Below, in pieces: positions 50,471 through 64,000 of a stretch of 64,000 nucleotides of DNA. Source of the DNA: Prochlorococcus sp. AG-409-J16 (GTDB lineage Bacteria > Cyanobacteriota > Cyanobacteriia > PCC-6307 > Cyanobiaceae). The position numbers were made by a program, and so were the translations under genes. Under the pieces are notes generated by a model that saw only the letters and a program-made list of their open reading frames with translations, was not told the origin of the DNA and searched no databases. Positions within the stretch are counted from its first letter, which is position 1. The number at the start of each line of letters is the position of its first letter. The DNA lies in the NCBI GenBank assembly GCA_003215655.1, contig QCKB01000005.1, forward strand, positions 62,001 to 126,000. Direction: 5' to 3'.

Positions 50471-50476
50471 GATTTT

Positions 50477-50752: not shown

Positions 50753-50842
50753 TTAATTTTTTCGAGCTCAACTTCTTTTTAGCTTATTGAGATCTGTTGA
50801 ACAGTCTTTAATCTCTCTCTCATGTCTATAAGGTCAAATTCC

Positions 50843-51448: not shown

Positions 51449-51454
51449 TTACCT

Positions 51455-51480
51455 TTATAGGAGCCTTTTGGCTCCTATAA
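51455..51480 (+). terminator. Rho-independent terminator of hli
   Basis: TTATAGGAGCC (51455-51465), loop TTTT, then GGCTCCTATAA (51470-51480): a perfect 11-bp stem followed by a T-rich stretch. It starts 7 bases after the hli stop. Confidence 0.9.
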
Positions 51481-51518
51481 ATTCTTCTTTTTCAATCAAT
51501 AGTCTCTATCAATTATTT

Positions 51519-51686
51519 ATGAATTCTCATGATGAGCAATGTTTTGTAGAATTAGAACCATATGAATCTTGTTTGATAGCCAACGAGCTTGATCCGTATG
51601 AAAGTTTGATTGAAGTTCTTCCAAAGAAAGAGACATTAGAAATTGCGAGACCATCAAGATTCAAGGTTGGTCAAGAAATCTTTTAG
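51519..51686 (+). CDS. Small acidic protein, unknown
   Basis: This 55-residue frame begins MNSHDEQCFVELEPYESC and has two similar DPYES/EPYES elements (VELEPYESC, NELDPYESL) about 12 residues apart. The frame is open to a TTG at 51468, but that lies within the hli terminator, so the ATG at 51519 is preferred. The function is unknown. Confidence 0.45.
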   Translation: MNSHDEQCFVELEPYESCLIANELDPYESLIEVLPKKETLEIARPSRFKVGQEIF

Positions 51687-51708
51687 AAAATAATTGTGAT
51701 TAAAATAT

Positions 51709-51891
51709 TTATATTTCATATTCTCTATTGTGAAGTCTAATCTCACGGCTCCAATAGTCATCGATTCTATTTTCAAGAGGTCGCATTATCGATGAAGATA
51801 TATAGCTATATCCTTGTGGAGGAAAATTTTTAAAATGCCTAATGATTGCTTTAACTCTATTTAGCTGTTTTGTGCTGATGGAGTTTTTCAT
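51709..51891 (-). CDS. Small basic protein, unknown
   Basis: This 60-residue basic protein begins MKNSISTKQLNRVKAIIRHF and ends HNREYEI. It is rich in Arg, Asn and Tyr with no membrane span. It is not recognised and is a candidate real gene on length and composition only. Confidence 0.4.
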   Translation of the reverse strand: MKNSISTKQLNRVKAIIRHFKNFPPQGYSYISSSIMRPLENRIDDYWSREIRLHNREYEI

Positions 51892-52104
51892 GTGAACCTT
51901 ATAAAAGTGATTTAAACATATAGATTAATGAAGATACTTATTGTTTCTTTTGGTACATTTTCAACTAAAATAGAGCTTTATCTTGATGTCTTAACTATAT
52001 TGAGTCTCAATAAATACATAATACTGGATTTAAGTATTCTCTAATACTTGTCGAGTTCCCTAATTCTTAGTGATACTTACTTGTGATTAATCTCTTGGAT
52101 GCAA

Positions 52105-52126
52105 GTTTGAATAAAGTTTGAATAGA
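52105..52126 (+). repeat. 11-bp direct repeat pair (GTTTGAATAAA type)
   Basis: GTTTGAATAAA is followed at once by GTTTGAATAGA. It has the same period and sense as the repeats beside the EVE-start copies, though this pair is about 150 bases away from the nearest copy. Confidence 0.75.
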
Positions 52127-52151
52127 AATTCTTGATTAGCTGCGATCGGTT

Positions 52152-52212
52152 GCTATCAAAACCCTGCACTGACAAGGAATGATCAAGAATCAAATTTTCC
52201 TAAGTGTTGAAT
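52152..52212 (+). pseudogene. Remnant of the gene at 60869-61090
   Basis: The frame here reads GCYQNPALTRNDQESNFPKC and then a stop. The C-terminus of the intact gene ending at 61090 reads RCYQNPSLKRNDQESNLLKC. The upstream part of the gene is missing or has stops in frame (for example a TGA shortly before). This is a decayed partial duplicate. Confidence 0.75.
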
Positions 52213-52248
52213 GGCGGCTTTTTTCTACTCTTTAGAAATCAACGAAAA

Positions 52249-52270
52249 GTGTGTATTTAGTTTGTATGGA
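52249..52270 (+). repeat. 11-bp direct repeat pair, left arm of copy 1
   Basis: GTGTGTATTTA followed directly by GTTTGTATGGA. It lies 31 bases left of the mini-ORF of EVE-start copy 1, the side opposite to the copy's upstream repeats. Confidence 0.75.
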
Positions 52271-52300
52271 TTTTTCCAATTCCTTGTAATCGCTTTCCAC

Positions 52301-52412
52301 TACTCAAATGCCGCTTTTCATTAGCCAGTAGTTAATTTCAGTCATACCAAGGGGTTTGGGCGAAAATGGGCGGTTTGAGTAAAGTTTGAGTAAACCCTCG
52401 ATCTCGGGGTTT
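52301..52412 (-). repeat. EVE-start repeat, copy 1, with 13-codon mini-ORF
   Basis: The minus-strand ATG at 52345 opens a mini-ORF MTEINYWLMKSGI ending in TGA at 52304. The upstream side copies the EVE promoter side closely, including CGCCCATTTTCGCCCAAA and the CGAGATCGA region. The single 11-mer there is doubled as a perfect tandem of GTTTGAGTAAA on the plus strand (52373-52394). Confidence 0.85.
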
Positions 52413-52431
52413 TAGTTATTTCCATTGTCTC

Positions 52432-53016
52432 TCAATCTTCCCAAGGTTTTTGGTTCTTGAATCTTTGTTCCCGATCCTCGGTTGTTTTTTCTGACCAGTC
52501 AGTAATTGGTCGATTGTCATAAGGATTTAGTCCTTTGTCCCTGCCATGAGTGTCCTGAGGACCTTGACTAGCAGGATATCGATAGTTGGGGATTGGTAAT
52601 GATTTCTGTCTTTTCCATCTGACTAGAGCAGTAACAAAATCTCTTTGAGCACTTTTGTTTTGGAAAAGGAAGAGTGCTTCTCTTTGTGTCTTCCCATCTG
52701 AGGACATATAAGAGATGTAGTTGTAGTACTCACTGCATTGATCGTATATACAGTTTTTCCCTTCTTGCTCATATCTATATCTAATCAATTGAGAACGTTG
52801 AATACCTCCTTGTCCTTCAACCCACATTGCAGGGCCTTGGAATCGAACACGACATTCAGTCTTTATTGATCGACATAGTGCATCGTGATAGCTCTTTGGA
52901 CCACTTTTGAACATTCCAATTGGGAAATCTGCATCGCCAAAATCTGCCTTTGCTGGGCTTAAAGGTAATGCAAAAATTGCTGCAACCCCTATGAGTATTG
53001 GATATATGCTTCGCAT
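52432..53016 (-). CDS. Secreted protein with N-terminal signal peptide
   Basis: This 194-residue protein has a clear signal peptide (MRSIYPILIGVAAIFALPLS then PAKA, likely cut before DFGDADFP). The mature part has CRSIKTECRVRFQGP and NCIYDQCSEYYNY, four cysteines that could form disulfides, and a polar Pro/Asn-rich tail. Periplasmic or outer-membrane placement is likely. The family is not known to me. It follows the next gene by one base, so they are coupled. Confidence 0.75.
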   Translation of the reverse strand: MRSIYPILIGVAAIFALPLSPAKADFGDADFPIGMFKSGPKSYHDALCRSIKTECRVRFQGPAMWVEGQGGIQRSQLIRYRYEQEGKNCIYDQCSEYYNYISYMSSDGKTQREALFLFQNKSAQRDFVTALVRWKRQKSLPIPNYRYPASQGPQDTHGRDKGLNPYDNRPITDWSEKTTEDREQRFKNQKPWED

Positions 53017-53017
53017 T

Positions 53018-53446
53018 TTATTTCGCCTCTAGACATTCAAACCCTGTATATCCTGCAGGACTAAAACGCTTACTTGCCTTAAAGAAGGCACCTTGTTCCT
53101 CGCATTGATCAAAATCTTTCATTTCTAGTTTCTCCATTGAACCCCCAGTGATCGCGCCATACATCATGACCAACCAAACACTCCCTTCTTTAGCTCCAGC
53201 TTTGTTTAATGCTTTCAAAGACTCTGCTCTAGCTGCTTTGACCTCAGATAATGCATCTCTTCGCATTGCTTTTACTTCAGTTAGAGCTTCCTTACGAGCT
53301 TGAGTTAATTCCCGTTTTGTATTTGCTAAGGATTCTTCTAGGTCATTGTCTTTTTGGCTTGCAATGGGGACAAGGAGACCAGCGACAGCAACTATCCCAA
53401 CGGTACTGATAGTGGCCAAGATTTTGTAGAAGATGCTAGTTCCCAT
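53018..53446 (-). CDS. Membrane-anchored coiled-coil protein
   Basis: This 142-residue protein has one N-terminal span (IFYKILATISTVGIVAVAGL) followed by a 50-residue charged helix of repeated A-lysine/arginine-E units (KREL TQARKEALTEVKAM, RRDALSEVKAARAESLKAL), a likely coiled coil. A C-terminal domain with two cysteines (DFDQCEEQGAFFK, YTGFECLEAK) ends the protein. It precedes the secreted-protein gene in one transcript. Confidence 0.75.
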   Translation of the reverse strand: MGTSIFYKILATISTVGIVAVAGLLVPIASQKDNDLEESLANTKRELTQARKEALTEVKAMRRDALSEVKAARAESLKALNKAGAKEGSVWLVMMYGAITGGSMEKLEMKDFDQCEEQGAFFKASKRFSPAGYTGFECLEAK

Positions 53447-53557
53447 TTTTATGTGGAGCAGTTTTATATTTCTAGCTGTTCTAGATAAATATTCCCCTTA
53501 ATTGAAGTAAATAGGAGTTTGGGTAAATCTCGACGATTCGCTGAGAGTGCTTGCGGT

Positions 53558-53628
53558 CACTCAAATGCCGCTTTTCATTAGCCAATAGGATATGTCAGTC
53601 ATAGCAAGGGATTTGCGAGAATTGTAGA
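53558..53628 (-). repeat. EVE-start repeat, copy 2, with 13-codon mini-ORF
   Basis: The minus-strand ATG at 53602 opens MTDISYWLMKSGI with a TGA at 53561. The upstream CAAATCCCTTGCT matches the other copies. Compared with copies 1 and 4, the codons differ mostly at third positions or by conservative change (E to D, N to S), and the reading frame is kept. Confidence 0.82.
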
Positions 53629-53661
53629 GTGTGTATTTAGTTGGTATTTGGTGTGTATGGA
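53629..53661 (+). repeat. Triple 11-bp direct repeat beside copy 2
   Basis: GTGTGTATTTA, GTTGGTATTTG and GTGTGTATGGA follow one another without gap, about 27 bases right of the mini-ORF start. This is one of the clearest arrays; each unit fits one turn of DNA. Confidence 0.85.
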
Positions 53662-53749
53662 ACCAGTTTAAGTTTGATGGCGAATAAAAGGCATGATTGG
53701 TCTACAGAGCAAGCTAGGTTCTTCTTTAGAAAGGAATAAAGGCATTTAA

Positions 53750-54232
53750 ATGACGAAGGCTTTTAGATACGTTGCGATAGCTTTATTTCTTTTGCTTATT
53801 CAATTATCGCCTAAACCTGTAATTGCGTGTGTGGAAGGTTTGTCGTGGGGGATGGATCTCTCAAATGTAGAGAAGCATCTTGGGACTTCTTTAAAACCTG
53901 TTCAGGAAGGATTGAATAGGGATCTTTTTGAAGTTACAGATTTTCAGATGAGTGGTTTACCTGTGATCAGTCTGCGTGTTCGTGTTGAAGAGGCGTATGG
54001 ATTGAAACAGCTTGCTTATGAAATGGACTATGAAAATATGACTGAAGTATTGGCAGGGTTAAGACATCGTTTTGGTCCTCCAGTTGGTACAAGTGTGGAT
54101 GTTGATGGCAGATCTCCTCAGCAACAATGGATTTGGCACACAGGAGAAGATGTGATTACTGCAGTTAAGAGTGAACAAAGACCATTCTTGCTTTCTTACC
54201 GACCATCACTTCTAGACCCTTCTTTCCTTTGA
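53750..54232 (+). CDS. Exported protein of unknown function
   Basis: This 160-residue protein has a signal peptide (FRYVAIALFLLLIQLSPKPVIA, likely cut before CVEGLSW). The mature part is small and alpha/beta with GLSWGMDLSNVEKHLGTSL, a pattern seen in small exported proteins that share a W-G-M-x-x-x-x-V core. The TGA stop lies in the loop of a terminator. No family can be named with confidence. Confidence 0.7.
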   Translation: MTKAFRYVAIALFLLLIQLSPKPVIACVEGLSWGMDLSNVEKHLGTSLKPVQEGLNRDLFEVTDFQMSGLPVISLRVRVEEAYGLKQLAYEMDYENMTEVLAGLRHRFGPPVGTSVDVDGRSPQQQWIWHTGEDVITAVKSEQRPFLLSYRPSLLDPSFL

Positions 54233-54247
54233 ATAAGGAAGGTTTTT
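54222..54247 (+). terminator. Rho-independent terminator overlapping the stop codon
   Basis: CTTTCCTT (54222-54229) pairs with AAGGAAGG (54235-54242) with one G-U pair; the TGA stop of the gene is in the loop; TTTTT follows. It separates two convergent genes that are only 13 bases apart. Confidence 0.75.
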
Positions 54248-54959
54248 ATGCGAAACCCTTCCTTTTGGGATTTGTTTTGCTGCCGGCGGTAAGGAAGTGC
54301 GTTTTATCACTGCCAACGTCATAGAGGGTGTAATTCAAACCAGCTCCAATGCCAATCACGCTTCGCTTGGGAACTTCCTGTTGTTGTTCACGTTTACCGT
54401 TCAGATCCTTTACTTGTGAATTGATCCCCCCTCCAGTTAGTTCAAGATGAAATTGTTTAGTACTGCGCGCTGTGAACAGTCTGTTCACATTGAGACGGGT
54501 GAGTCGATCAAGGAGGATCAGTGGAGATGTTTCAGATGTGAGGTTGTCACCCACGTCTGAAGAGCTCCCATGGATGAGTGCACAGTCAAGTTCAATGAAG
54601 CCAAATTGCAGTGATGCCAGCCATTTCAGGTGAGATGGATTGACCGTATTTAGCAGTGCGCTGACTGCGTCTTCACCTTGGCTGAGCCGCAGAGCATCAG
54701 CTTTGCGTTCACCACGAAACCCACGCTCTGCAAGTAGTTGCTCTTCCCACCAGCCATAGATGCAATCTGGTTTTAAATCGCCGCTATGGGGATTTTTTAG
54801 TCGATCCAACAATGCGTCACAGTTGCGTTCGGGTCCGACTAGGTCTCCAAGGACAAATAAGGATGTAACTCCACGAGTCTTCTTTAGATCCCGTTGAATT
54901 AGGTCATAGGTCTCGAGATCTCCGCGTAGACCACTTACTAGTGCCCATCTTTCAATCAT
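54246..54959 (-). CDS. Degenerate metallophosphoesterase-like protein
   Basis: This 237-residue protein resembles calcineurin-like phosphoesterases in order of motifs, but the metal ligands are altered. The first motif reads VSGLRGDLE (DxH lost), the second keeps GDLVGPERN, the third reads GWWEEQ in place of GNHE, and LIHGSSSD keeps HG. It overlaps the next, better-preserved paralogue by ATGA. It could be a regulatory or structural partner. Its C-terminal 30 residues recur as a fragment at 60098-60199. Confidence 0.7.
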   Translation of the reverse strand: MIERWALVSGLRGDLETYDLIQRDLKKTRGVTSLFVLGDLVGPERNCDALLDRLKNPHSGDLKPDCIYGWWEEQLLAERGFRGERKADALRLSQGEDAVSALLNTVNPSHLKWLASLQFGFIELDCALIHGSSSDVGDNLTSETSPLILLDRLTRLNVNRLFTARSTKQFHLELTGGGINSQVKDLNGKREQQQEVPKRSVIGIGAGLNYTLYDVGSDKTHFLTAGSKTNPKRKGFA

Positions 54960-55771
54960 CTTTCACACACATGACTTGCATCTTCGGCCTGTTCGGCGAA
55001 TTCAAAACCATGACTCAGTCGCCATGCGAATACTTTCGGTAGCCCCGCTTCGACAATCGCTTGACAGGTTCGACCAACGTCATAGGGCACCTCTTTTATC
55101 TCAACTTCATCAGTTGCATCGTTGTGAATTACATAGGTGGCATTGGTACTTCCATGACGTGGCTCGCCCACTGATCCAGCATTGACGATTTTGCGCATAG
55201 GCAGGGTCAGTTCTTCACCCTGATCGCATTCATGGTCAGCATTTTGTAAACGCACACGAATAGATCCATCTCTCAACTCACGTACATAAGGCTGGTGGGT
55301 ATGCCCGCAAAACAGAATATCGGCCCCCGCTGTTTCTACTCGCTCGAGAGCCGCAAATGCATCCATGTCTGGCAGAAGATACTCATGCTGACTGTTGGGA
55401 CTGCCATGCACGAAGAGGAGTCGATCACGACGTAATGATGTCGGGAGGCTGGCCAAAAAACTTTTGTTTTCGTCCGTTAGCTGATCATCTGTCCATTGGT
55501 GGGCCAGGTGCCCACGTCTTTCTGCTAGCTGAGAAGGGTAGCTGCACTCGCAGGCATTAAGACCATCGATGATATCTTCATCCCAGCAACCCTGGCAGGT
55601 AGCGATGTCACGCTTTCGTATCAGCTCAACTACTTCGTTGGGCTGGGGGCCATAGCCCACTAGATCACCAAGACAGGTAATGGTGTCAATCCCTTGCCTA
55701 TCAATGTCATTTAAGACAGCTTCCGTTGCAGGGAGATTGGCGTGTAGACAGGAGATAATTGCGTGATTCAT
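54956..55771 (-). CDS. Metallophosphoesterase-like protein with cysteine-substituted metal sites
   Basis: This 271-residue calcineurin-like protein has motifs SCLHANLPA (Cys8 in place of the usual Asp, His10 kept), LGDLVGYGP (Asp36), QGCWDED (Cys62 where Asn is usual), FVHGSP (His122) and FCGHTHQPY (His157, His159). Two of the usual oxygen or nitrogen ligands are thus Cys, which could favour a thiophilic metal such as zinc. It lies between a degenerate paralogue and a CobW-like gene, in an apparent three-gene operon. Confidence 0.82.
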   Translation of the reverse strand: MNHAIISCLHANLPATEAVLNDIDRQGIDTITCLGDLVGYGPQPNEVVELIRKRDIATCQGCWDEDIIDGLNACECSYPSQLAERRGHLAHQWTDDQLTDENKSFLASLPTSLRRDRLLFVHGSPNSQHEYLLPDMDAFAALERVETAGADILFCGHTHQPYVRELRDGSIRVRLQNADHECDQGEELTLPMRKIVNAGSVGEPRHGSTNATYVIHNDATDEVEIKEVPYDVGRTCQAIVEAGLPKVFAWRLSHGFEFAEQAEDASHVCER

Positions 55772-55776
55772 GGCGA

Positions 55777-56562
55777 TTAAGTTGAGGGAATAGCTTCTTT
55801 GTGTCGATCTCTAAGAGGCATTTGATGCATCTCAAGTACGGCATCGTTTAGTAGGCAGAGGTCGATCGTTGATTGAATACGTAAGCCATCAAGATGTTTT
55901 CCTTGCACGACAAGCTCAGACAAGCTGGTAGGCCTGCCATTTGGAGCTGAAATTTCTTCAAGTGGAAGGAACTGAGAGCTTTCTTGACTCACGATCCAGT
56001 TGAAGAACATAGAGCGTCCATCTGGCAAGTTCATCAAGGCCTTAGCTCGATAGACGTCGCCATAGGCTCCGTTGACTAGCTCAAACCAAAAAGTATTCAG
56101 ACTGGGCGGATCCCAGACGCTGGCATTAAGACTGAGGCTGAAAGATTCAAGTTTTTTGAATTCCAATGTGTCTTTGTTTGGTAATTCAGGATCCCGACCA
56201 AAGTGGAGATGCCTGTCAGGATGAAGTTGCAAGGCTTCAAGTTGATTTTTGACGCGAGGATCCATACCCGTTAGGCCTGCATGCTGAGGAGCCTGGAACT
56301 GAGGAATCTCAACCAATGTGAGCAGGTTGCCTTGTTGCGATCTGGAGGCATGATGGGAATCCGATAGATCTATTAGTTCAGGGAATTGATCCTTGAGAAA
56401 TGTCTTATCGATTCCTGAGTCAGATACCTGCTCTAGCCCGTTAGAGGAATAGCCATCTAGTCGCAAATATCCGCATTTGCCTTGATGGCTTCGCATTGTT
56501 TTGAGAATCCAGCTGGTTTTGCCGCAGCCTGGCGAACCCGAGATCAGCCATGTCTGGCTCAT
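55777..56562 (-). CDS. CobW-like P-loop GTPase
   Basis: This 261-residue protein has Walker A at residues 8-16 (GSPGCGKTS), preceded by the WLIS strand. The later part has VYRAKALMNLPDGRSMFFNWI, reminiscent of the CobW C-terminal domain. G3E-type CobW (COG0523) proteins act as metal insertases or zinc chaperones and are often under Zur. The canonical CxCC metal motif and a clear SKxD base motif were not found, so it is a divergent member. A Fur/Zur-like box stands about 43 bases upstream. Confidence 0.65.
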   Translation of the reverse strand: MSQTWLISGSPGCGKTSWILKTMRSHQGKCGYLRLDGYSSNGLEQVSDSGIDKTFLKDQFPELIDLSDSHHASRSQQGNLLTLVEIPQFQAPQHAGLTGMDPRVKNQLEALQLHPDRHLHFGRDPELPNKDTLEFKKLESFSLSLNASVWDPPSLNTFWFELVNGAYGDVYRAKALMNLPDGRSMFFNWIVSQESSQFLPLEEISAPNGRPTSLSELVVQGKHLDGLRIQSTIDLCLLNDAVLEMHQMPLRDRHKEAIPST

Positions 56563-56604
56563 TCTTTGAACAATGGCAATCGCCCTAGGAAAATATCAGA
56601 ATAT

Positions 56605-56623
56605 GAGAACGATAACCATTTTC
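56605..56623. promoter_or_regulatory. Fur-family (Fur or Zur) box-like site
   Basis: GAGAACGATAACCATTTTC matches 15 of 19 positions of the classical Fur consensus (GATAATGATAATCATTATC), with an imperfect palindrome TGAGAA-N9-TTTTCA. It lies 43 bases before the CobW-like gene. Whether Fur or Zur binds cannot be told. Confidence 0.5.
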
Positions 56624-56716
56624 ATTGTGTAACCCTGATTTTTTGTTTTTTCATTTCTGCCATTTCTCTAGACGACCCTTCGGCCTAGAATCTTAGGCAT
56701 AAATACTTAGAAGCTG

Positions 56717-56740
56717 GTTAGAATAAAGGTTAGAATAAAT
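56717..56740 (+). repeat. 12-bp direct repeat pair, left of copy 3
   Basis: GTTAGAATAAAG followed at once by GTTAGAATAAAT. The period is 12 rather than 11, but the place, about 40 bases left of the mini-ORF of copy 3, matches the left arms of other copies. Confidence 0.65.
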
Positions 56741-56779
56741 TAACCAGGTTTTCTCCTAGATTCTTGCTGTAACTAGCTT

Positions 56780-56945
56780 TTAGACAGTTGATTTGCTTTT
56801 CATTAACCAATAGGAGATATTCTCAGCCATAGCAAGGGATTTGGGTGAATCTCAGTGTGTGAACTTTGTGTGAACTTTTGGAAAACGAGCAGTTCTTAAT
56901 CCTTACTTTATTCTGCCTCAGAAAAGCTTTGAAGGGTATGGGACG
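56780..56945 (-). repeat. EVE-start repeat, copy 3, with extended flank
   Basis: The minus-strand ATG at 56830 opens MAENISYWLMKSKSTV ending in TAA at 56780, a variant that keeps YWLMKS. Upstream, the perfect 11-mer tandem GTGTGAACTTT x2 lies at 56857-56878. The following 65 bases, to about 56943, are nearly the same as those beside copy 4. Confidence 0.8.
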
Positions 56946-57067
56946 AGAAAGGGAGTAAAGCATGAGGCTTAGCAAATTAATAGAACCAGCTAAGTGTATC
57001 GAAGTAGAAAGTATGATTTATTTTTATTTGTAGGGCTCTAGCTATATATTTGTGGATATTAATATAC

Positions 57068-58090
57068 TCATAGTTCTACAGTACATGAATCGATTAATTG
57101 CTGAACAAACGGATTCTCTAAGTGTGGCTTTTTAAACCATTCCATAGAAGACTTAAGTATTTTGTGTATACATATGAATTCATGACCTAATCTACGAGAA
57201 GTTACCATTAGCGATGAAGCTTCTCCTATTAATTTAAGGCCTTTAAGATTGTAGAGCATATAATCTATGCATTTAATTGTAGTTAATTCGACATTGTGCC
57301 TCTTTAGTATTGACTGATAATCTGCTTGAAAGGATAATAAGGATGGATGTGGGCAGTATACGAGGCTTTTGTTATATGCTTTCGCATATTTAAGTGAAAT
57401 TTTCAATGTTTCGTTGAGTATAGCTAGGTCGCATTCTTCTTTGCATCCAATGTGAATTAGATTATTCTCGTAATTTGCATTAGCCAAGTTTGGCAACTCT
57501 TGAAGCGCATTGAATATTTCCTCATCACTAAGGATAATCTTCTTAATGCCGGATAGGTCTTTATTGTCTAGTGAACCTATAAATGTTAGATCTTCTGGGG
57601 AGATTCTATAAGTAAGGTGAAAGGGTATTGAGAAGTATCTAGTTGGATCTTCTGATTTATAAACTATGTCTTTAAACTCTGAACCACATAGTGGACCTGT
57701 GTTTTGCTCTCTAGGGAATTGAGAGCCTTCTTCTATAAAATCAACGGATTTACAATTTACACTAAATGCTATGAGCTGCATTAAAGGGTCAATTAGATGT
57801 GAAACAAATACTGCATCCCATTCTCCAGGGCACAGCTCTTTAATATATTTAGAGTATTCTCTAATATTGCTCCACTGACTATTGTCGGATAAATACGCAT
57901 AAGGTGTTGTCCTATATTCATCAAGGTCGCAATGATTTAAATTTAATGTGTTTATAACTTTTCCATAGCCTCTTGTAGAGAGAAAAAGGCATTTTGTCCT
58001 GTCAAGTTTAAATCTATTTAAATAGGCAAGAGATATTATTAATGTCCTCCAGCTATGAACATGGAAAATACAGCTTTTAGGATTGTCCAT
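57068..58090 (-). CDS. Sialyl/polysialyltransferase-like glycosyltransferase
   Basis: This 340-residue protein has features of bacterial sialyltransferases (GT52 and related): the acidic-acidic-Gly element in VDFIEEGSQFP, the His-Pro element in LVYCPHPSLLSF, and a Ser pair in IGEASSLMVTS near the end. The protein is soluble, AT-rich and without signal. It would add sialic or other nonulosonic acids to cell surface glycans. Sequence identity to characterised enzymes cannot be judged here, so the exact donor is not known. Confidence 0.6.
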   Translation of the reverse strand: MDNPKSCIFHVHSWRTLIISLAYLNRFKLDRTKCLFLSTRGYGKVINTLNLNHCDLDEYRTTPYAYLSDNSQWSNIREYSKYIKELCPGEWDAVFVSHLIDPLMQLIAFSVNCKSVDFIEEGSQFPREQNTGPLCGSEFKDIVYKSEDPTRYFSIPFHLTYRISPEDLTFIGSLDNKDLSGIKKIILSDEEIFNALQELPNLANANYENNLIHIGCKEECDLAILNETLKISLKYAKAYNKSLVYCPHPSLLSFQADYQSILKRHNVELTTIKCIDYMLYNLKGLKLIGEASSLMVTSRRLGHEFICIHKILKSSMEWFKKPHLENPFVQQLIDSCTVEL

Positions 58091-58390
58091 TATTCTTGGC
58101 GAACTTTACTTAATTCTTGCTTTATGGAACGGAATAAAACCTTACTTAGGTAAAGAAAGTAACAAATATAGATAATCTAGAACGCTTATTCGATCAGTCT
58201 TTAACGGTTTTTAGCGCTACAAAAGAAAGCTCTGCCAAGCAGCTGCTGTGATAATTGCTTACTTTCCTTTTTTATTCCTTTTATATATATGTGTAAGAAA
58301 ATTAGCTGCTTATAAATGAACATCAACTTAATTATCTCAAGATTTAAGTGAAATAAAATTCGAACCGCAAATCGTTAGCGAAAGAGTTTT

Positions 58391-58575
58391 TTAGCTTTTG
58401 GAACGAGTCAATCTAGCTCTTAGTAAATTGCGAAGGATGTCAACTTGTTCAGGCTTTTTTAATGATGCGCTGGTTTTTAAGAAATCAAGCCTTGATTTAG
58501 AACGTTGGAATAGGTCTACGTATTGCGCTTGGCTTGGTTCGCTATCTGAGGCATTGAGAGAACATCAGCAGTCAT
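58391..58575 (-). pseudogene. Frameshifted small gene
   Basis: The ATG at 58575 reads MTADVLS and then runs into a stop 12 codons later. In a second frame, starting at about the same point, a good protein-like stretch follows: SEPSQAQYVDLFQRSKSRLD, then LKTSASLKKPEQVDILRNLL and RARLTRSKS to the TAA at 58391, with no usable start of its own. A single frameshift near residue 8 would join them. It resembles a helical picocyanobacterial microprotein; no family is known to me. Confidence 0.5.
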
Positions 58576-58585
58576 AAAAAGAGTG

Positions 58586-58607
58586 GTGTGTATTTAGTTG
58601 GTATTTA
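58586..58607 (+). repeat. 11-bp direct repeat pair, left arm of copy 4
   Basis: GTGTGTATTTA followed at once by GTTGGTATTTA, 30 bases left of the copy 4 core. It is the same sequence as in the triple array beside copy 2. Confidence 0.8.
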
Positions 58608-58636
58608 TTTTTGCGTTTCCTCGAGATCCCTGTCCA

Positions 58637-58800
58637 CCACTCAAATGCCGCTTTTCATTAGCCAATAGTTTATCTCAGTCATAGCAATGGATTTGGGCGA
58701 ATTGCAGTGTGTGAATTTTGTGTGAACTTTTGGGAAACGAGCAGTTCTTCAGCCTGTCTTTATTCTGCCTCAGAAAAGCTTTGAAGGGTTTGGGGATACA
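58637..58800 (-). repeat. EVE-start repeat, copy 4, with 13-codon mini-ORF
   Basis: The minus-strand ATG at 58682 opens MTEINYWLMKSGI with a TGA at 58641. The peptide is identical to that of copy 1 although codons differ (for example GAG ATA for GAA ATT). Upstream are CGCCCAAATCCATTGCT, as in the resident gene, and a tandem GTGTGAATTTT-GTGTGAACTTT (58709-58730), then the flank shared with copy 3. Confidence 0.85.
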
Positions 58801-58863
58801 AGAAATCGGGGTAAAGGGTTCATAACCAAGGAACAGACGTTCCAGCATGATTTCTGATTTGCC

Positions 58864-59091
58864 TTAGTGGTACTCCAGAAACAATTCTCCTTCATACCCA
58901 AGCAATTTCATATATTCCCTCCATTCGGCTTCATCTTCTAGCTCATATCGATAAGACTTTGCGATGTTCTCTTCACCCCACAAAGGCGCAAGGTTTCTCC
59001 AATTAAAACAAATCCTTTTCTGTCTCTCATCATCGAGATCAAAACCTGAGCAAGTAGTAAATATTTCATTTTCAATCCAGCCTATCTGCAT
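58864..59091 (-). CDS. Small acidic protein, unknown
   Basis: This 75-residue protein has several Trp residues (IGWIENEIFTTC, FNWRNLAPLWGEEN, EAEWREYMKLLGYEGELFLEYH). It is acidic and soluble. Its start overlaps the end of the upstream 45-residue gene by 20 bases, so the two are likely translated together. The family is unknown. Confidence 0.6.
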   Translation of the reverse strand: MQIGWIENEIFTTCSGFDLDDERQKRICFNWRNLAPLWGEENIAKSYRYELEDEAEWREYMKLLGYEGELFLEYH

Positions 59092-59209
59092 AGTCCCTTA
59101 AAACCTCTGCCATTTTGTGTGGAGGAATTTCTTGCTGATATTCCCTACATAAATCAAAGAACTTATCTAAAAATTCCTTCATAGGATTTGGTCTTTTTTC
59201 TTCTGTCAT
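59072..59209 (-). CDS. 45-residue protein coupled to the next gene
   Basis: This microprotein begins MTEEKRPNPMKEFLDKFFDL and ends VLRDYADRLD. It is a likely two-helix peptide with balanced charge. It overlaps the following gene by 20 bases. The clean start, helical pattern and coupling support a real gene, though it is short. Confidence 0.6.
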   Translation of the reverse strand: MTEEKRPNPMKEFLDKFFDLCREYQQEIPPHKMAEVLRDYADRLD

Positions 59210-59223
59210 TTAGGACCTCAAAA

Positions 59224-59245
59224 GTGTGAACAGAGTGTGAACGGA
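59224..59245 (+). repeat. 11-bp direct repeat pair, left arm of copy 5
   Basis: GTGTGAACAGA followed at once by GTGTGAACGGA, about 30 bases left of the copy 5 core. Here the left arm has the GTGTGAAC form that other copies show on the right. Confidence 0.8.
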
Positions 59246-59274
59246 TTTTGCTAATTCCTTGTAATCGCTTTCCC

Positions 59275-59325
59275 TCACTCAAATGCACTTGTTCATTAGC
59301 CAGTAAGAAATGTCAGTGCATGAAG
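59275..59325 (-). repeat. EVE-start repeat, copy 5 (frame lost)
   Basis: The minus strand still encodes TDISYWLMNKCI and the CATTTGAGTG edge of the other copies, but the ATG is one base out of frame, and the upstream CAAATCC block and right-side 11-mers are missing. The left part (CGATTACAAGGAATT) equals that of copy 1. Confidence 0.75.
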
Positions 59326-59343
59326 TAAAGAGAATTAAACTTG

Positions 59344-59517
59344 TCAATTCTTTAACTCAACAATTTCATAGTAAGGGCGGTCTTCGTAGTCAGCATCTGA
59401 GCAGCACATATCTCCGTAGATCGCCTCTAGTAAGTCATAGGCATCGTCGTAGTTGTCGAAATCTTGAGAGGTGATGTCGTCCTCTTCTCCATCGTGTCTG
59501 GTGATGCGATATATCAT
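59344..59517 (-). CDS. 57-residue acidic protein, unknown
   Basis: This acidic microprotein begins MIYRITRHDGEEDDITSQDF and includes YDDAYDLLEAIYGDMCCSDA with a Cys pair. The strand-turn-helix order (IYRITRHDG, then DDAYDLLE) suggests one small folded domain. It is preceded and followed by other tiny minus-strand genes. The composition strongly supports coding. Confidence 0.65.
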   Translation of the reverse strand: MIYRITRHDGEEDDITSQDFDNYDDAYDLLEAIYGDMCCSDADYEDRPYYEIVELKN

Positions 59518-59529
59518 GCCTTTGTCCTC

Positions 59530-59661
59530 TTAGGTTTCCCAGTCGACACCATCGTCATCTTCGTCGTATTCATAATTCAGTAGAGAGTTCTCACCCTTTT
59601 CTTTTTTCTCTTCTTTATTTGCAAGAGGCGTTTCTTCTTCCATTCTCACCATTTCTCTCAT
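59530..59661 (-). CDS. 43-residue acidic protein, unknown
   Basis: This very polar peptide has a Lys/Glu-rich stretch (NKEEKKEKGENS) and an acidic tail (NYEYDEDDDGVDWET). Either the ATG at 59661 or one at 59643 (MEEETPLAN) may be the start. It is upstream of the 57-residue gene by 12 bases, so probably in one transcript. Confidence 0.5.
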   Translation of the reverse strand: MREMVRMEEETPLANKEEKKEKGENSLLNYEYDEDDDGVDWET

Positions 59662-59670
59662 TGGAACAAA

Positions 59671-59681
59671 GTTTGGGTAAA
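59671..59681 (+). repeat. Solitary 11-mer GTTTGGGTAAA
   Basis: Identical to the single 11-mer beside the resident EVE gene (50438-50448) and to that at 53517-53527, but with no EVE-start core next to it. Confidence 0.6.
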
Positions 59682-59747
59682 CACTCTCCCATTAGCTTTA
59701 CTGATAGGCATTCTGGCCTGTTCCCATATAGAGGTGAATTATATGTT

Positions 59748-59942
59748 TCACACTACTCCTAATTTCATTGCTCCCTTAACCTTTCTGACTATTGCATCAT
59801 CAATATCGTTGTCCGTTTGAAGGGCTAACCATTCCAAAGCAGAAACGATCCAAGCCTTCATTTGTTTCTTGAATAGCTTTTTAAGGGTTAAGAACAGCAT
59901 GGGCTTGAATAATAAAAAAAAGAATCCTGTAATACCTGTCAT
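59748..59942 (-). CDS. Small membrane-associated protein, unknown
   Basis: This 64-residue protein has a hydrophobic N-terminal stretch (ITGFFFLLFKPMLFLTLKKLF) and a soluble helical tail (ALEWLALQTDNDIDDAIVRKV, ending GAMKLGVV). It may sit at the membrane surface. The family is unknown; the pattern of a tail with DNDIDDAIV suggests constrained coding sequence. Confidence 0.55.
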   Translation of the reverse strand: MTGITGFFFLLFKPMLFLTLKKLFKKQMKAWIVSALEWLALQTDNDIDDAIVRKVKGAMKLGVV

Positions 59943-59959
59943 TCTTTGAACCTCATTGA

Positions 59960-60199
59960 TTAAAAAGCTAGGGGTTTTCCCCGGTAGTGAGCTATTAGTC
60001 CTAGGTGATTATTAATGCAAATTTGAGTAAAAAGGTTGTTTTCACTCTTGCTGAGATATTTGTCAACCAGCTTTTCGCTAATCAGGAAAGTTTTTAGACG
60101 AGACCTACCCCTTTTGTTGTTGGTTTGACTGTAGGCGGTTAGGAAGTGCGTTTTATCAATATCTAAGTCATAGAGGGGGGAATTCAACCCTGCTCGAAG
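59960..60199 (-). pseudogene. Fragment of the 54246-54959 phosphoesterase-like gene
   Basis: The minus-strand frame reads RAGLNSPLYDLDIDKTHFLT and then AYSQTNNKRGRSR. The intact gene's end is GAGLNYTLYDVGSDKTHFLT then AGSKTNPKRKGFA. The frame continues past the old stop into unrelated sequence to 59960. Only this C-terminal end is present, so it is a truncated duplicate; a short protein from a TTG at 60187 cannot be ruled out. Confidence 0.7.
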
Positions 60200-60208
60200 A
60201 CATAACGG

Positions 60209-60649
60209 TTACTTCTTATAAGGAAGAGTTAATTGCTGTCCTTTGATTCCTGCAGAAGCAACAAAAACTAGTGCAGCTTGATCACCAACGCTTTCGCAAA
60301 AATGAACACTATCTTGAGGAGTAGCAAAGCTTTCTCCAGGACCTACTTGTAGTGCTTTGCCATTGAGGGTTTGACAGGAAAGGTTCCCTTGCACCACATA
60401 CGCAATTCCTGGTTGTGAGTGGAAATGAAGAGGAGTTTTAAAGCCTGGTTGGGCAGTTATGCGTTGAAGTGTCATTTGCGCCTGCCCTTTTGGATACTCA
60501 TAAGAACCTCCACTCCAAGACTCAGTCGCGCTTATAAGAGTTTCGACAACTACAGGTTCAACATTTGCAGATGTTTCTTTCTTTGAAGTACAGGAGACTA
60601 GTGGTAAAGCAATCCCAGCAGTTAGCGCGAATAGTAAAAAGCGTCGCAT
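60209..60649 (-). CDS. Cupin-domain lipoprotein
   Basis: This protein of about 146 residues has a lipoprotein signal (FLLFALTAGIALPLVSC with lipobox LVSC). A cupin domain follows: TPLHFHSQPGIAYVVQGNLS holds the His pair of motif 1, and GPGESFATPQDSVHFCESVG is motif 2. An ATG at 60691 would add 14 residues. It is probably a membrane-anchored small-molecule binding cupin. Confidence 0.8.
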   Translation of the reverse strand: MRRFLLFALTAGIALPLVSCTSKKETSANVEPVVVETLISATESWSGGSYEYPKGQAQMTLQRITAQPGFKTPLHFHSQPGIAYVVQGNLSCQTLNGKALQVGPGESFATPQDSVHFCESVGDQAALVFVASAGIKGQQLTLPYKK

Positions 60650-60868
60650 TTTTGAATTAAGGAGAAGTGTTGGTTTTATTGCCGTTTTCATATTAAGTAC
60701 GGTTGAAAAGCTGATTCAGCAAACATTCCATCTTTAGGAGCTATTGCAAGAGCTTCCCAGCAATTAATGATTTCTTTTTTCTGGGCGCCTTTGGTCTTAG
60801 CTTTTCTTTTGGATGCTTGTTGCCTTCAATTTCTCTACCCCCAGGGAATACCTTCTTCAAGCCTAAGA

Positions 60869-61090
60869 ATGTCCTTACGTCACCCTCTCTTTCATCGAAC
60901 GATTTTGGCTCTTCTTTTAGATATCCAAGAGTCAGGGTATGAACCACCAACCCTTGAGAATAGAAAAGCTTTCCAGGATGAATTAATCCAAGAACTTGAA
61001 GAAGGGATTTTGCCGATCATTGAAAAAAGGTGCTATCAAAACCCTTCACTTAAAAGAAATGATCAAGAATCAAATCTTCTTAAGTGTTGA
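60869..61090 (+). CDS. Small helical protein, intact relative of the 52 kb remnant
   Basis: This 73-residue protein from the ATG at 60869 begins MSLRHPLFHRTILALLLDIQ and ends RNDQESNLLKC. It is helical with an acidic middle (DELIQELEEGILPIIEK). The frame is open to 60767, but that part is hydrophobic and less protein-like. A degenerate copy of its C-terminus lies at 52152-52212, so this family was duplicated inside the island. Confidence 0.6.
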   Translation: MSLRHPLFHRTILALLLDIQESGYEPPTLENRKAFQDELIQELEEGILPIIEKRCYQNPSLKRNDQESNLLKC

Positions 61091-61168
61091 AGGTGATCTT
61101 TCGTTGACCGTTTAGAAATGAATAAAGCGTGCAAATACTGTGAGAATAAATTTCCCTGACACTTTGCA

Positions 61169-61330
61169 ATGCCCCTCAACAAACCTATCCCTGATTCGGT
61201 TATGCGCCTGTGGCGTAAGATTCGCAGGTTTGAATTAACACGCCCTCTTCGGGCTACTGAGAAGAGGATGGAATCCGTTAAAAAATCATTGAAATATATA
61301 GACCGAGCCGAACCCAGAACCTCGAAATGA
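61169..61330 (+). CDS. 53-residue basic protein
   Basis: This basic microprotein begins MPLNKPIPDSVMRLWRKIRR and has many Arg and Lys residues over an amphipathic helix. Its stop overlaps the next gene by ATGA, a strong sign that both are real and coupled. Confidence 0.6.
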   Translation: MPLNKPIPDSVMRLWRKIRRFELTRPLRATEKRMESVKKSLKYIDRAEPRTSK

Positions 61331-61464
61331 ACAATAAAACAACTTACGGATGGAAAGACTTACTGACTGACACGGCAATTATTGCTGTGGCTTGTGGAAT
61401 CGTACTTGTAATTATTGGATCATTCCCAGATTTCTTTGGAAGGAACTTGCATCTCTTGAAATAG
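61327..61464 (+). CDS. 45-residue single-span membrane protein
   Basis: This microprotein has one hydrophobic helix (TAIIAVACGIVLVIIGSFP) between a polar start (MNNKTTYGWKDLL) and a short end (GRNLHLLK). It overlaps the upstream gene by ATGA. Size and topology resemble accessory photosystem subunits, but it is not recognised as one. Confidence 0.6.
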   Translation: MNNKTTYGWKDLLTDTAIIAVACGIVLVIIGSFPDFFGRNLHLLK

Positions 61465-61550
61465 ATCCATATTAAAGCTGATTGCTCTTTAGGAATTACT
61501 TAGTGCTTATCTTCACATCAGTCATAGTAAAAAAAGCTTATACAAGATTT

Positions 61551-61727
61551 TTATCGCGTAGTTTGTAATGCGGGGATCATTTTTCCCCCATCTTGATCAT
61601 CATCATTATCAAAAATTCTTGAAAGAAACTCAAGGGTAAGAAGAATTACCATTGGATAAAAACACCAAAGGATTGCTTTCCATTCTGAAACCTGATCTAC
61701 AGATGCTTGAAGTTCTTCTAAAGACAT
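61551..61727 (-). CDS. 58-residue membrane protein
   Basis: This microprotein begins MSLEELQASVDQVSEWKAIL and has one hydrophobic span (ILWCFYPMVILLTLEFL), then an acidic DNDDDQDGG tail. It is divergent from the 56-residue gene at 61743, with 15 bases between starts. Confidence 0.6.
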   Translation of the reverse strand: MSLEELQASVDQVSEWKAILWCFYPMVILLTLEFLSRIFDNDDDQDGGKMIPALQTTR

Positions 61728-61742
61728 AGTTGTAAATAAAAA

Positions 61743-61913
61743 ATGTTTAAATTTAGATGGCTATCGCAATTTTTATCGGTTGAACATTCCACTAGATATA
61801 GATGTTGGCAACAATTGATTAATTCCTACCTTGAAGATGCCTCAATAAGAAAATTAACTTGTTCGCTTAAAGAATTTCGCAAGAAATTGTTTGTAAGGCC
61901 TGAAAGGATTTAA
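61743..61913 (+). CDS. 56-residue basic protein
   Basis: This frame begins MFKFRWLSQFLSVEHSTRYR and ends KLFVRPERI. It is basic with aromatic residues early and a helical end (SLKEFRKKLF). It is very close to the divergent 61551-61727 gene. Support is the clean start and length only. Confidence 0.45.
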   Translation: MFKFRWLSQFLSVEHSTRYRCWQQLINSYLEDASIRKLTCSLKEFRKKLFVRPERI

Positions 61914-61923
61914 TTCCATAGGT

Positions 61924-62031
61924 TTAAAAAACACCAGGAATAATTTGGCCCGTCAAAGAGTAGGCTCCGAGAGCGGCAAAGATGCCGATCATTGCCCACC
62001 TTCCATTTTGAAGTTCAGCGTTTTCGTTCAT
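61924..62031 (-). CDS. hli: High-light-inducible protein (Hli), short form
   Basis: The ATG at 62031 gives 35 residues: ELQNGRWAMIGIFAALGAYS, the exact ExxNGRxAMxGF chlorophyll-binding pattern, and the end GQIIPGVF. An upstream frame to 62127 exists, but it is hydrophobic and overlaps the next hli gene. It is the second gene of a tandem hli pair, 31 bases after the first. Confidence 0.85.
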   Translation of the reverse strand: MNENAELQNGRWAMIGIFAALGAYSLTGQIIPGVF

Positions 62032-62062
62032 TGTTTTGTAGTAATAGTAGGTTCTGCTTGAG

Positions 62063-62200
62063 TTAGAAAATCCCTGGAATAATCCAGCCAAAAAGAACAT
62101 AGTTGTGAATGAGAACGAGAAAACCAATCATTGCAAGGCGACCATTGGTTTGCTCTCCTTCTTTCCAAAAGTTTGGAAGTTCGTTGGTAGATGAAGTCAT
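62063..62200 (-). CDS. hli: High-light-inducible protein (Hli), divergent
   Basis: This 45-residue protein begins MTSSTNELPNFWKEGEQTNG, then RLAMIGFLVLIHNYVLFGW and ends IIPGIF. The core reads EQTNGRLAMIGF, the Hli motif with His and Asn in the second half of the helix. An upstream start at 62272 would add 24 residues. With the next gene it forms a two-gene hli operon. Confidence 0.85.
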   Translation of the reverse strand: MTSSTNELPNFWKEGEQTNGRLAMIGFLVLIHNYVLFGWIIPGIF

Positions 62201-62272
62201 CAGAAGGCGGCTAGATTGAATACCGAGAGTAGTTAAAGACCAAATTGGCTGATCCATGAAGAACTGTAACAC

Positions 62273-62617
62273 AAAATATTACCAAGTGTGAAGGGCTTTC
62301 TCCCCCAGCCAGTTCGATTTCGTATTTAAACATTAAAAAAGCCTTTGATGCTAATGATTTTTTCTGTTAAATTTAATTGCTTTAGGTCAAGAATGAGGAG
62401 CTGATAATAAATCTATAATAACATTTTTTGGTTGAAATTATTTAAAATTATTTAAACTAGTAGTTCTCCCCTGATTTAGTCTTGAAAATTATTTCTCATT
62501 TGCAGGAACAATTTCTCTTAATCGAAGTCAACAATAGTTTGAGGCAATTTTTTCTGGCTTGTTTAAAACTGTTGGTAAGACTCTAATCAACTATTTTATT
62601 GTCGAGTACTTAGTTTT
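62273..62617. other. AT-rich spacer upstream of the hli pair
   Basis: A 345-base AT-rich stretch. No gene or clear structure was found; the hli promoter must lie in its first 100 bases. Confidence 0.55.
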
Positions 62618-62722
62618 ATGTATAACAAGTTATCTCAAGTAATTTCAAGATTTGAACAACTTAGAAAGTTGAATGAGCTAATCTTCCCCTGCAGCAAGTT
62701 TCGAGTGCAGATAGGCCTTTAG
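62618..62722 (+). CDS. Possible 34-residue protein
   Basis: The frame begins MYNKLSQVISRFEQLRKLNE and ends FRVQIGL, a plausible helix. It overlaps the stop of the convergent gene by four bases. Only the helix pattern supports it. Confidence 0.25.
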   Translation: MYNKLSQVISRFEQLRKLNELIFPCSKFRVQIGL

Positions 62723-62907
62723 TCTTCCCTTGTGTGTATTTTGCTAAAGAGAGTTTCTATGCGTAATTGGATTGAGTACAACTTAGTTCGATCTAATAAA
62801 TAATTTTCACCTTTCTTGTTCTTGACGATTGAAACCAGAACATAAAGCTGTAAGCCCAGAAAGATGAGCCCAATGAGAACCAGCACTGTATATGGATCAC
62901 CAATCAT
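62719..62907 (-). CDS. Small membrane protein, unknown
   Basis: This 62-residue protein has an N-terminal span (YTVLVLIGLIFLGLQLYVLV) and a basic cytoplasmic tail (KNKKGENYLLDRTKL). It overlaps the upstream open frame by 11 bases. It is plausible as a microprotein of the thylakoid or plasma membrane. Confidence 0.5.
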   Translation of the reverse strand: MIGDPYTVLVLIGLIFLGLQLYVLVSIVKNKKGENYLLDRTKLYSIQLRIETLFSKIHTRED

Positions 62908-63094
62908 ATAAAACCTGTTTTCCTTTTTCCTTTCTAGTATTTTTCATAAGCATTTTACCTATAGTCTCTAGGTTGATTTTGATAAGCAATGGAAGAACTA
63001 ACCAAAAGAGTGGAAGAGCTTGAGAAGAGAGTCCAGCATTTAGAAGCAATGCTGCGATACCAAGCAAGAAAAAACAAATGAGTTCGGTTGTCAT
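62897..63094 (-). CDS. Hydrophobic ORF opposite a coiled-coil ORF
   Basis: This 65-residue frame is very hydrophobic (FFLLGIAALLLNAGLSSQAL). It lies exactly antisense to the plus-strand coiled-coil ORF at 62989-63081. The antisense of a Lys/Glu-rich helix is automatically Leu/Phe-rich, so it may be only a shadow. The overlap with the next minus-strand gene speaks in its favour. Confidence 0.3.
   Translation of the reverse strand: MTTELICFFLLGIAALLLNAGLSSQALPLFWLVLPLLIKINLETIGKMLMKNTRKEKGKQVLYDW
62989..63081 (+). CDS. 30-residue coiled-coil microprotein
   Basis: The frame begins MEELTKRVEELEKRVQHLEA and continues MLRYQARKNK. Hydrophobic residues follow a strict 4-3 heptad pattern (L4, V8, L11, V15, L18), which argues for selection as a coiled coil. 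It resembles short SlyX-like or picocyanobacterial coiled-coil proteins. Confidence 0.55.
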   Translation: MEELTKRVEELEKRVQHLEAMLRYQARKNK

Positions 63095-63176
63095 GCCCCT
63101 TTTCTAGCTGAAACAAGCTATGTGAGCATTGTTTAGTTGAATTGCCTCTATGATTTTGCTCTGATTTCTTTTACAA

Positions 63177-63449
63177 ATGGATTTTTCTGGACCAGATGCG
63201 ATTGATAAAGCTATTGAGGCAGGTTTGGACCTTGATGGCAGTTCAATACCCGTTGAAATGCTAAAGCTTTACCGAGAGGTTATGCAAAAAGAAGGGGCAA
63301 GAAAAAGAAGTGGAGTGAAAAAATCTATGCGGAATAGGATCGTACGCTCTGGATCAAAGCATTTTGACCAAGAGACTCTTAATCACCGGCTGATCGATGC
63401 TGGTTGGGACGGGTTGAATTCAAAGGAGGTTGATTTTTTCTTCAGTTGA
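63177..63449 (+). CDS. Conserved picocyanobacterial protein, unknown
   Basis: This 90-residue protein begins MDFSGPDAIDKAIEAGLDLD and includes a basic middle (ARKRSGVKKSMRNRIVRSG) and FDQETLNHRLIDAGWDGL. It is soluble and helical. I believe close relatives occur in marine Synechococcus and Prochlorococcus, but no function is known. It stands at the right edge of the island. Confidence 0.7.
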   Translation: MDFSGPDAIDKAIEAGLDLDGSSIPVEMLKLYREVMQKEGARKRSGVKKSMRNRIVRSGSKHFDQETLNHRLIDAGWDGLNSKEVDFFFS

Positions 63450-63661
63450 TTTTTTCTTCTTCTTTGTTGGTTTGGATAACGTTTGCCTAGAAATTGCTGA
63501 TTTTCTTAGAATATTTGGTATTCATTAAAGGGAAGCACTCAACCCTATATGGTTTAGTGAAGGCATATCAAGGGTTTTTTGCAAAAATAGGTGGCTTGGT
63601 AAATCCTTAATCTTGGGATTGTTACTTTGTCTATTTCTCAGTCAACACGAAAAGGTGGATT
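63450..63661. other. Gap carrying the decayed EVE-start copy beside yjbQ
   Basis: A 212-base gap ahead of yjbQ. It contains the diverged EVE-start relative (63536-63625) and presumably the yjbQ promoter in the remaining 40 bases. Confidence 0.55.
63536..63625 (-). repeat. EVE-start repeat, copy 6 (decayed)
   Basis: CATATCAAGGG, then TTTTTTGCAAAAATAGGTGG, GGTAAATCC and ATCTTGGGATTGTTA align in order with the EVE upstream block (CATAGCAATGG, TTTGGGCGAAAATGGGCGG, GGTAAACC, ATCTCAGGGGTTCATA). The coding part is no longer readable apart from a CACTCAA edge. It ends 36 bases before yjbQ. Confidence 0.6.
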
Positions 63662-64000
63662 ATGTTTATAGAAAAGATTTCGATCCAGACCAGCTCATCA
63701 TTTTCCTGCCACGCAATTACCAATCAAATTGAGAATATTATTGAGTGTGTGGGGCAGCAGGAAGGTGTTGTATGCGTGTCTGGGATGCATTCGACTACTG
63801 CCTTAATTGTAAATGAGATGGAAGAGAGGTTGATTCTGGATCTAGAAAAATGGTTGAATGAATTAGCTCCTCCCTTGCAAGGATATAAGCATGATGATTT
63901 ATATTTAAGAGACAATATCCCGGAAGATGAGCCAAAGAATGCACATTCTCACTTGCAAGCTTTATTACTTGGTAATGATGTGACTGTGCCTTTTAAAGAT
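63662..64000 (+). CDS. yjbQ: YjbQ/UPF0047 family protein, cut by window end
   Basis: The first 113 residues are present. They show HSTTALIVNEMEERLILDLE, then LQGYKHDDLYLRDN, EDEPKNAHSHLQALLLGND and TVPFKD, the YjbQ/UPF0047 signature with its conserved His and Asp residues. Family members bind metal or phosphate and may have weak thiamine phosphate synthase activity. It begins at the ATG at 63662, directly right of the decayed EVE-start copy, and continues beyond the window. Confidence 0.9.
   Translation, partial: MFIEKISIQTSSSFSCHAITNQIENIIECVGQQEGVVCVSGMHSTTALIVNEMEERLILDLEKWLNELAPPLQGYKHDDLYLRDNIPEDEPKNAHSHLQALLLGNDVTVPFKD

Follow-up and report, generated by a model that had tools for sequence, protein, structure and literature searches.

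Repeated EVE gene starts in a Prochlorococcus island as probable attachment sites of integrative elements

Integrons line up mostly small cassettes that lack a recombinase, in tandem next to a single fixed port. In Prochlorococcus, tycheposons were reportedly described by Hackl et al. in 2023, and a repeat of the genomic islands of this organism, PRE1, is said to have been reported by Coleman in 2006. A further class of elements, the dusA-specific genomic islands, enters the 5' end of a protein-coding gene, replacing and displacing the old 5' end, and their description lists semi-conserved 21-bp repeats, a tyrosine recombinase and variable cargo (PMC4482086).

The window analysed here, the whole stretch of 64,000 nt, covers positions 62001-126000 of contig C5 (QCKB01000005.1) of Prochlorococcus sp. 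AG-409-J16 (G000; genome 1.84 Mb), the sole member of its genus among the genomes compared. It contains an array built on copies of the start of an EVE gene, and such EVE arrays seem to work like dusA 5'-end islands, but in long tandem arrays. Both have an element-supplied 5' end of the target gene and a displaced old 5' end, whereas the EVE arrays differ in their target (EVE, PF01878, instead of dusA), in their host group, in consisting of many integrase-less units in tandem and in a linked integrase family without the first catalytic Arg (PMC4482086). The dusA islands carry an integrase gene; here, one lies beside the attachment (att) site in 13 loci of relatives, and the window's genome has none of this family among the matches listed. 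Like integrons, the EVE arrays hold tandem, mostly small recombinase-less units at one fixed port; unlike integrons, they have a switch point central in the site, single-strand folds that vary between sites and a gene's own start codons as target. With the tycheposons they share cargo-carrying integration with a tyrosine recombinase in the same organisms (PMC10872708), and arrays of relatives combine such a recombinase with metabolic, nitrogen-related cargo. The borders of tycheposons are tRNA genes (PMC10872708), whereas the target here is EVE, and neither the window nor 17 array loci contained a tRNA or tmRNA gene. No description of EVE-start insertion arrays was found in the literature searched, although the main tycheposon study may contain one.

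The comparison was based on 40 EVE loci of relatives taken from the top of the EVE ranking, and the fractions reported are not population estimates; G097, G099 and G183 were left out (contig ends), and several genomes of the genera g5 and g35 were passed over. Read on the EVE strand, a site consists of an X half (~80 nt), a core and a Y half (~80 nt). The X half contains the ATG and about five EVE-like codons, the core is TAYTGGYTAATGAA, followed by AAGCG in several sites, and the X and Y halves resemble each other as inverted-repeat-like arms (1 of 2000 column shuffles was as good). EVE itself has only X and core, with the EVE body next, and the core consists of EVE's own codons; at the EVE start of the window it has diverged to TGGTGGATCATGAA. 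Named records carrying the att core were mostly Prochlorococcus single-cell genomes among the matches listed. The arms were unrecognised at the EVE start in 11 of 41 loci, including all eight of g35/g5. The core string is the target gene's own coding sequence, since Methylococcales and others likewise have it at their EVE start, where arms are absent or matches around it are weak (among the matches listed).

Copies of the ~165-bp block were found at EVE (core 50395), at 52330, 53587, 56812, 58667 and 59305 and, decayed, at 62608 and 63551, and every recognised site of the window sits on EVE's strand. The features are as follows, in window coordinates.

49928-50410, minus strand: EVE gene, the proposed insertion target (PF01878, E 5.3e-51)
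50371-50461, minus strand: X half and core of the EVE start, with start codon, first codons and upstream region (nhmmer E 6.4e-14)
50396-52310, no strand assigned: cassette 1, with a Cupin_3 protein at 50477-50752 (PF05899) and small ORFs
52098-52159, minus strand: orphan Y half (nhmmer E 7.4e-10)
52241-52408, minus strand: putative displaced att site, core 52330-52317 (nhmmer E 7.4e-46)
52432-53446, minus strand: cassette 2, two proteins without Pfam family
53509-53647, minus strand: putative displaced att site, core 53587 (nhmmer E 2.1e-27)
53750-56562, no strand assigned: cassette 3, with shared blocks in relatives; ORFs at 53750-54232 (plus), 54246-54959 (minus) and 55777-56562 (minus)
54956-55771, minus strand: metallophosphoesterase of cassette 3 (PF12850)
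56709-56873, minus strand: putative displaced att site, core 56812 (nhmmer E 2.3e-13)
57068-58090, minus strand: cassette 4, a 340-aa protein without Pfam family
58577-58726, minus strand: putative displaced att site, core 58667 (nhmmer E 3.6e-32)
58864-59091, minus strand: cassette 5, a 75-aa ORF
59220-59317, minus strand: putative att site, core and Y half, core 59305 (nhmmer E 4.8e-23)
59748-62272, no strand assigned: cassette 6, with a cupin protein at 60209-60691 and small ORFs
62515-62688, minus strand: putative decayed att site, core 62608 (full matrix)
62719-63449: segment 7, with ORFs at 62719-62907 and 62897-63094 (minus)
63177-63449, plus strand: DUF4090 gene of segment 7 (PF13319)
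63458-63631, minus strand: putative decayed att site, core position 63551, core lost (core-masked matrix and half scores)
63662-64000, plus strand: yjbQ (UPF0047), 142 aa, running off the window (PF01894, E 3.8e-33)

Most sites were found by nhmmer, including that at 56812, which carries an indel and was missed by the ungapped matrix. The decayed site at 62608 scored 7.4 with the full matrix against -38.5 for the next unlisted position, and its nhmmer match was not significant (E 4.6). Two Y halves lack core and X, the orphan listed above and one at 61125-61174 (E 0.065), and these are possibly remnants of deletions between sites. At 54232, two modules found apart in relatives stand directly next to each other with no recognised att site between them, a side observation that would fit the precise loss of one site. 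Cassette 6 has two weak chlorophyll a/b-binding matches (61924-62127 and 62063-62272). A DUF4090 gene lies 2.2-2.7 kb from EVE in L040, L042 and L045, and the gene may therefore be an older resident than the cassettes. A candidate X half near 69430 was rejected as not significant by the half-matrices. Phage records gave no match to the DNA of the EVE region, and the three exact core matches in viral contigs were all without att context.

The outermost copy, immediately before yjbQ, had been proposed by the first-pass annotation as a decayed EVE start at 63536-63661. Its existence was borne out, at shifted limits (63458-63631) and with the core lost. The position-weight matrix used for this purpose has 174 columns and was built from the core-found array sites in the EVE loci of the 40 relatives, with the window excluded (47 sites before removal of identical ones). 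With core columns masked, the site scored 42.6, compared with 2.8 for the best position outside the island and -9.3 for the best opposite-strand or reversed-sequence decoy. Scored separately, the Y half reached 27.9, against 7.4 for the best of the reversed decoys and 14.3 for the best unrelated position of the window, and the X half, at 13.1, was no better than its best decoy at 13.2. By nhmmer, the match at 63600-63564 was not significant alone (E 0.39) and that at 63532-63469 had an E-value of 0.0053; the X and Y matches stand in exact register, with the model spacing kept. In a plain BLAST comparison with EVE this was the weakest of the EVE-start relatives (73% over 48 bp, E 0.04). The copy is best read as a genuine, old displaced or worn attachment site of the EVE array. 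No further site was recognised (E<=0.01) over the remaining 6.4 kb of the contig to its right, and the recognisable array may have its distal end here.

The identity between sites of different genomes switches at the core. This was followed in four pairs chosen as the clearest. The EVE start of G011 is identical to window site 53587 over X and core (84/84) and then drops to 29/90, and the EVE starts of G020 and G021 agree at 84/84 and then at 55/90. The reverse pattern was found between G036 and window site 52330 (39/70, then 103/104), and the displaced site of G036 matches the EVE start of the window on the X side (68/70) and in the core (12/14), followed by 25/90. At 20 of 35 EVE sites the X half has at least 80% identity with a displaced site in some other genome, and the EVE bodies of these pairs are on average 71% identical. 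The 20 include L042 and L045, whose match is in a near relative (96% body identity), and L070, whose match is in a closer one (82%).

Taken together, the EVE-start copies are very probably att sites of integrative elements that enter the first EVE codons by site-specific recombination. The element would carry the X half (EVE upstream region, start codon and about five codons), the core and, at its other end, the Y half. Insertion would join the X half of the element to the EVE body, giving EVE a borrowed start, and the previous start would be pushed outward, fused to the Y half and then left to decay, so that repeated rounds would yield a tandem array. In the window and in many relatives, each cassette thus appears to give EVE a new promoter and start codon as the island forms. 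The likely enzyme would be a divergent tyrosine recombinase of ~517 aa, encoded beside the att site of autonomous members, and the cargo-only units of the window would need a recombinase in trans. The pairing of enzyme and site, the order of arrival, movement in trans and the effects on EVE expression are what we infer from this arrangement.

The cargo points in the same direction. Window positions 50377-52357 are 97.7% identical to a block of G036, 53569-54237 are 99% identical to the EVE-proximal block of G011, and 54232-56671 recur at different positions in six relatives with 94-96% identity. Across the loci, 236 shared blocks were collected (length at least 400 bp, identity at least 80%, with every pair entering once from each side). 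Their ends lie within 100 bp of a site more often than expected by chance, namely in 143 of 441 cases (32%) compared with 5.7% for shifted positions; 220 of the 441 ends have no recognised site within 300 bp. A total of 85 array sites were recognised in 25 of 41 loci, and the 21 loci with both an EVE site and an array contain 67 units with a median length of 2.1 kb. Genomes have near-identical cargo in common although their EVE proteins are no more than about 61-69% alike, and the arrays therefore look like a recent route of gene exchange. Genes of the nitrite/sulphite-reductase and formate/nitrite-transporter families were found within the EVE arrays of L046, L054 and L066. Near EVE in L036, L052 and L073 there is a recurring set of ArsR-like, GAPDH-like, MFS-like and PBP-family (PF12849) genes, of which the PBP protein was the one examined with Pfam.

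The recombinase of about 517 aa occurs in three loci and matches phage integrases (phrog_1, E 8.6e-14). Its PF00589 match (E 1.9e-4) lies below the curated cut-off, and the domain was found in 9 of 14 family members (best 1.9e-7). Among the matches listed for the 400 family genomes, at least 86 genomes have some integrase match and at least 23 a strong one (at least 55% identity and E<=1e-10); 21 of these 23 have it on the contig and strand of EVE, 0.4-41 kb upstream, in some cases as fragments only. The integrase of G183 and G214 is on a contig other than EVE's, and G227 carries one further copy on a different contig. Weaker, decayed pieces lie upstream of EVE in G373, G043, G364 and G355, and the other weaker matches compared (e.g. 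G020, G021, G029, G055, G146 and G185) lie off the EVE contig or at distances above 100 kb. Short matches were dropped in G189 (56% over 36 aa) and G205 (90% over 20 aa), the latter 2.3 kb upstream of EVE on the opposite strand. In all 13 loci with the integrase N-terminus, the att site ends 0-108 bp from it; the site is partial in G335 and G399, and the gene of G399 is split. In alignment A1 (L053:16122-17672 and relatives), all 14 integrases have Ser286 at what we take to be the position of the first catalytic Arg, and Lys368, Arg453 and Tyr485, which we assume to be the other catalytic residues, are invariant. The tyrosine recombinase catalytic set is incomplete in this family, as the first Arg is absent. 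The structure model is poor (pTM 0.36), and a PDB fold search with it returned nothing at E<=0.001 and a weak match to 3nrw (E 0.066, prob 1.00), which was also the best relevant match of a PDB sequence search with the integrase profile (E 0.1). Phage records gave no match to this integrase, and viral contigs contained one relative at 34% identity (L271).

Because the window's own genome has no member of this family among the matches listed, its cassettes are presumed to be non-autonomous units carrying cargo only. When 30 genomes were searched with PF00589, the EVE-linked integrase was missed, being below the reach of that model. The search gave one match in the own genome, a 386-aa protein (G000:C1:425660-426820; L204:1661-2821, plus strand; E 6.6e-6), which scored far below the cut-off of the NCBIfam integron model. 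Its neighbours are presumably ferrochelatase-, CobO- and PyrH-like genes, and frames of about 390 aa with a PF00589 match are present in many relatives. This tyrosine-recombinase-like protein is a candidate for a housekeeping or trans-acting recombinase. A possible but rather doubtful reading goes further and sees an integron-like platform, in which a trans-acting recombinase would capture small integrase-less cassettes successively at the EVE start. The enzyme would be either the 386-aa protein or the EVE-linked integrase that lacks the first Arg, and each capture would reset the promoter, first codons and expression of EVE. An attC-like mechanism is not claimed, as the sites share no common single-strand structure; their folds differ from site to site, and a few fold well (one with z -5.2).

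Three other explanations for the copies were weighed. The first, short-homology or homologous recombination and segmental duplication acting on the EVE start with no dedicated recombinase, would make use of the short homologies offered by cores and arms, and it agrees with the roughly half of shared-block ends that lie away from any site and with the lack of the EVE-type integrase in the window's genome among the matches listed. Against this explanation stand the single fixed switch point, the almost uniform orientation and an integrase gene that adjoins the sites in all 13 loci, and it is unlikely. One opposite-strand att site each was seen in L046 and L075 (scores 115.1 and 24.7), possibly by inversion. 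The inverted-repeat-like arms and the few well-folding sites (one with z -5.2) would suit a dispersed regulatory or MITE-like repeat that resembles the EVE start by chance, but the copies continue EVE's own codons, no Rfam family was detected in 49800-64000 at gathering scores, and the exact-core copies of the own genome are restricted to the EVE island with the exception of one match on C8. That match showed no att context by eye and was taken as chance. With a degenerate core, five of six matches in the own genome were upstream of EVE on its strand. This second explanation is considered very improbable.

The third, put forward in the first-pass annotation, holds that EVE and yjbQ were ancestral divergent neighbours sharing one promoter region, with the outermost copy marking the right junction and the island ends at about 50.41 and 63.6 kb. 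In its favour, yjbQ is divergent from EVE here and starts at 63662, 31 bp past the modelled 63551 block, and the last recognised site of G011 is likewise followed by a stretch that carries SelO- and yjbQ-like genes. The proposed comparison of gene order was carried out by searching yjbQ in 80 genomes (matches of 22-33% identity were set aside as paralogues, and fragments on C7 of G001 were not counted), and matches of at least 53% identity were found in 24 genomes besides that of the window. Among the matches listed, yjbQ was on another contig than EVE in 11 of the 24 and on the EVE contig in 13, and it was adjacent to EVE in none of these; it lay on EVE's strand 11.8 kb away in G011, the closest case, and 34 kb away in G144, divergent at 69 kb in G064, and more than 300 kb away in the other ten. 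Only one of the 40 fetched EVE loci contains yjbQ. The gene next to EVE is instead a MurD-like one in all eight g35/g5 loci, located 16-68 bp upstream on the same strand, with a serA-like gene further on. On the genomes searched, ancestral adjacency of EVE and yjbQ thus deserves almost no credence. The left end at EVE holds as the fixed end of the island, with the DNA between the copies as inserted DNA, and the right end at 63.6 kb is not supported as an ancestral EVE-yjbQ junction.

With the copies read as att sites, the island extends beyond the array. EVE and the MurD-like gene have known places on one contig and strand in 17 of 32 genomes searched, separated by 3-171 kb (among the matches listed): 3.4 kb in G070, 22.5-27 kb in G129, G109, G160, G085 and G055, 47-50 kb in G116, G358, G144, G399, G172 and G011, 66-68 kb in G396 and G052, and 102, 140 and 171 kb in G077, G064 and G031. 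Contig C1 of the own genome carries the MurD-like gene, 33 kb from the contig end, and EVE is ~20 kb from the end of C5; if these two ends meet, the island would be at least ~53 kb long. The 33-kb stretch on C1 contains no recognised site, so the array occupies the part next to EVE, with other island DNA beyond. Since yjbQ lies between EVE and the MurD-like gene in G011, G064 and G144, on differing strands, it is an island gene. Cassette-type cargo also continues past 63.6 kb, because the 121-aa gene to the right of yjbQ (L205:803-1168) has relatives in L063, L068 and L071 that lie no more than ~0.6 kb from a site.

With the EVE start as the target, there would be a definite mechanism and an exact entry point for a large variable island, which spans 3-171 kb in 17 genomes among the matches listed. 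In Prochlorococcus-type genomes, the integration target would be a protein gene and not a tRNA gene, and the history of insertions may be readable from the displaced sites.
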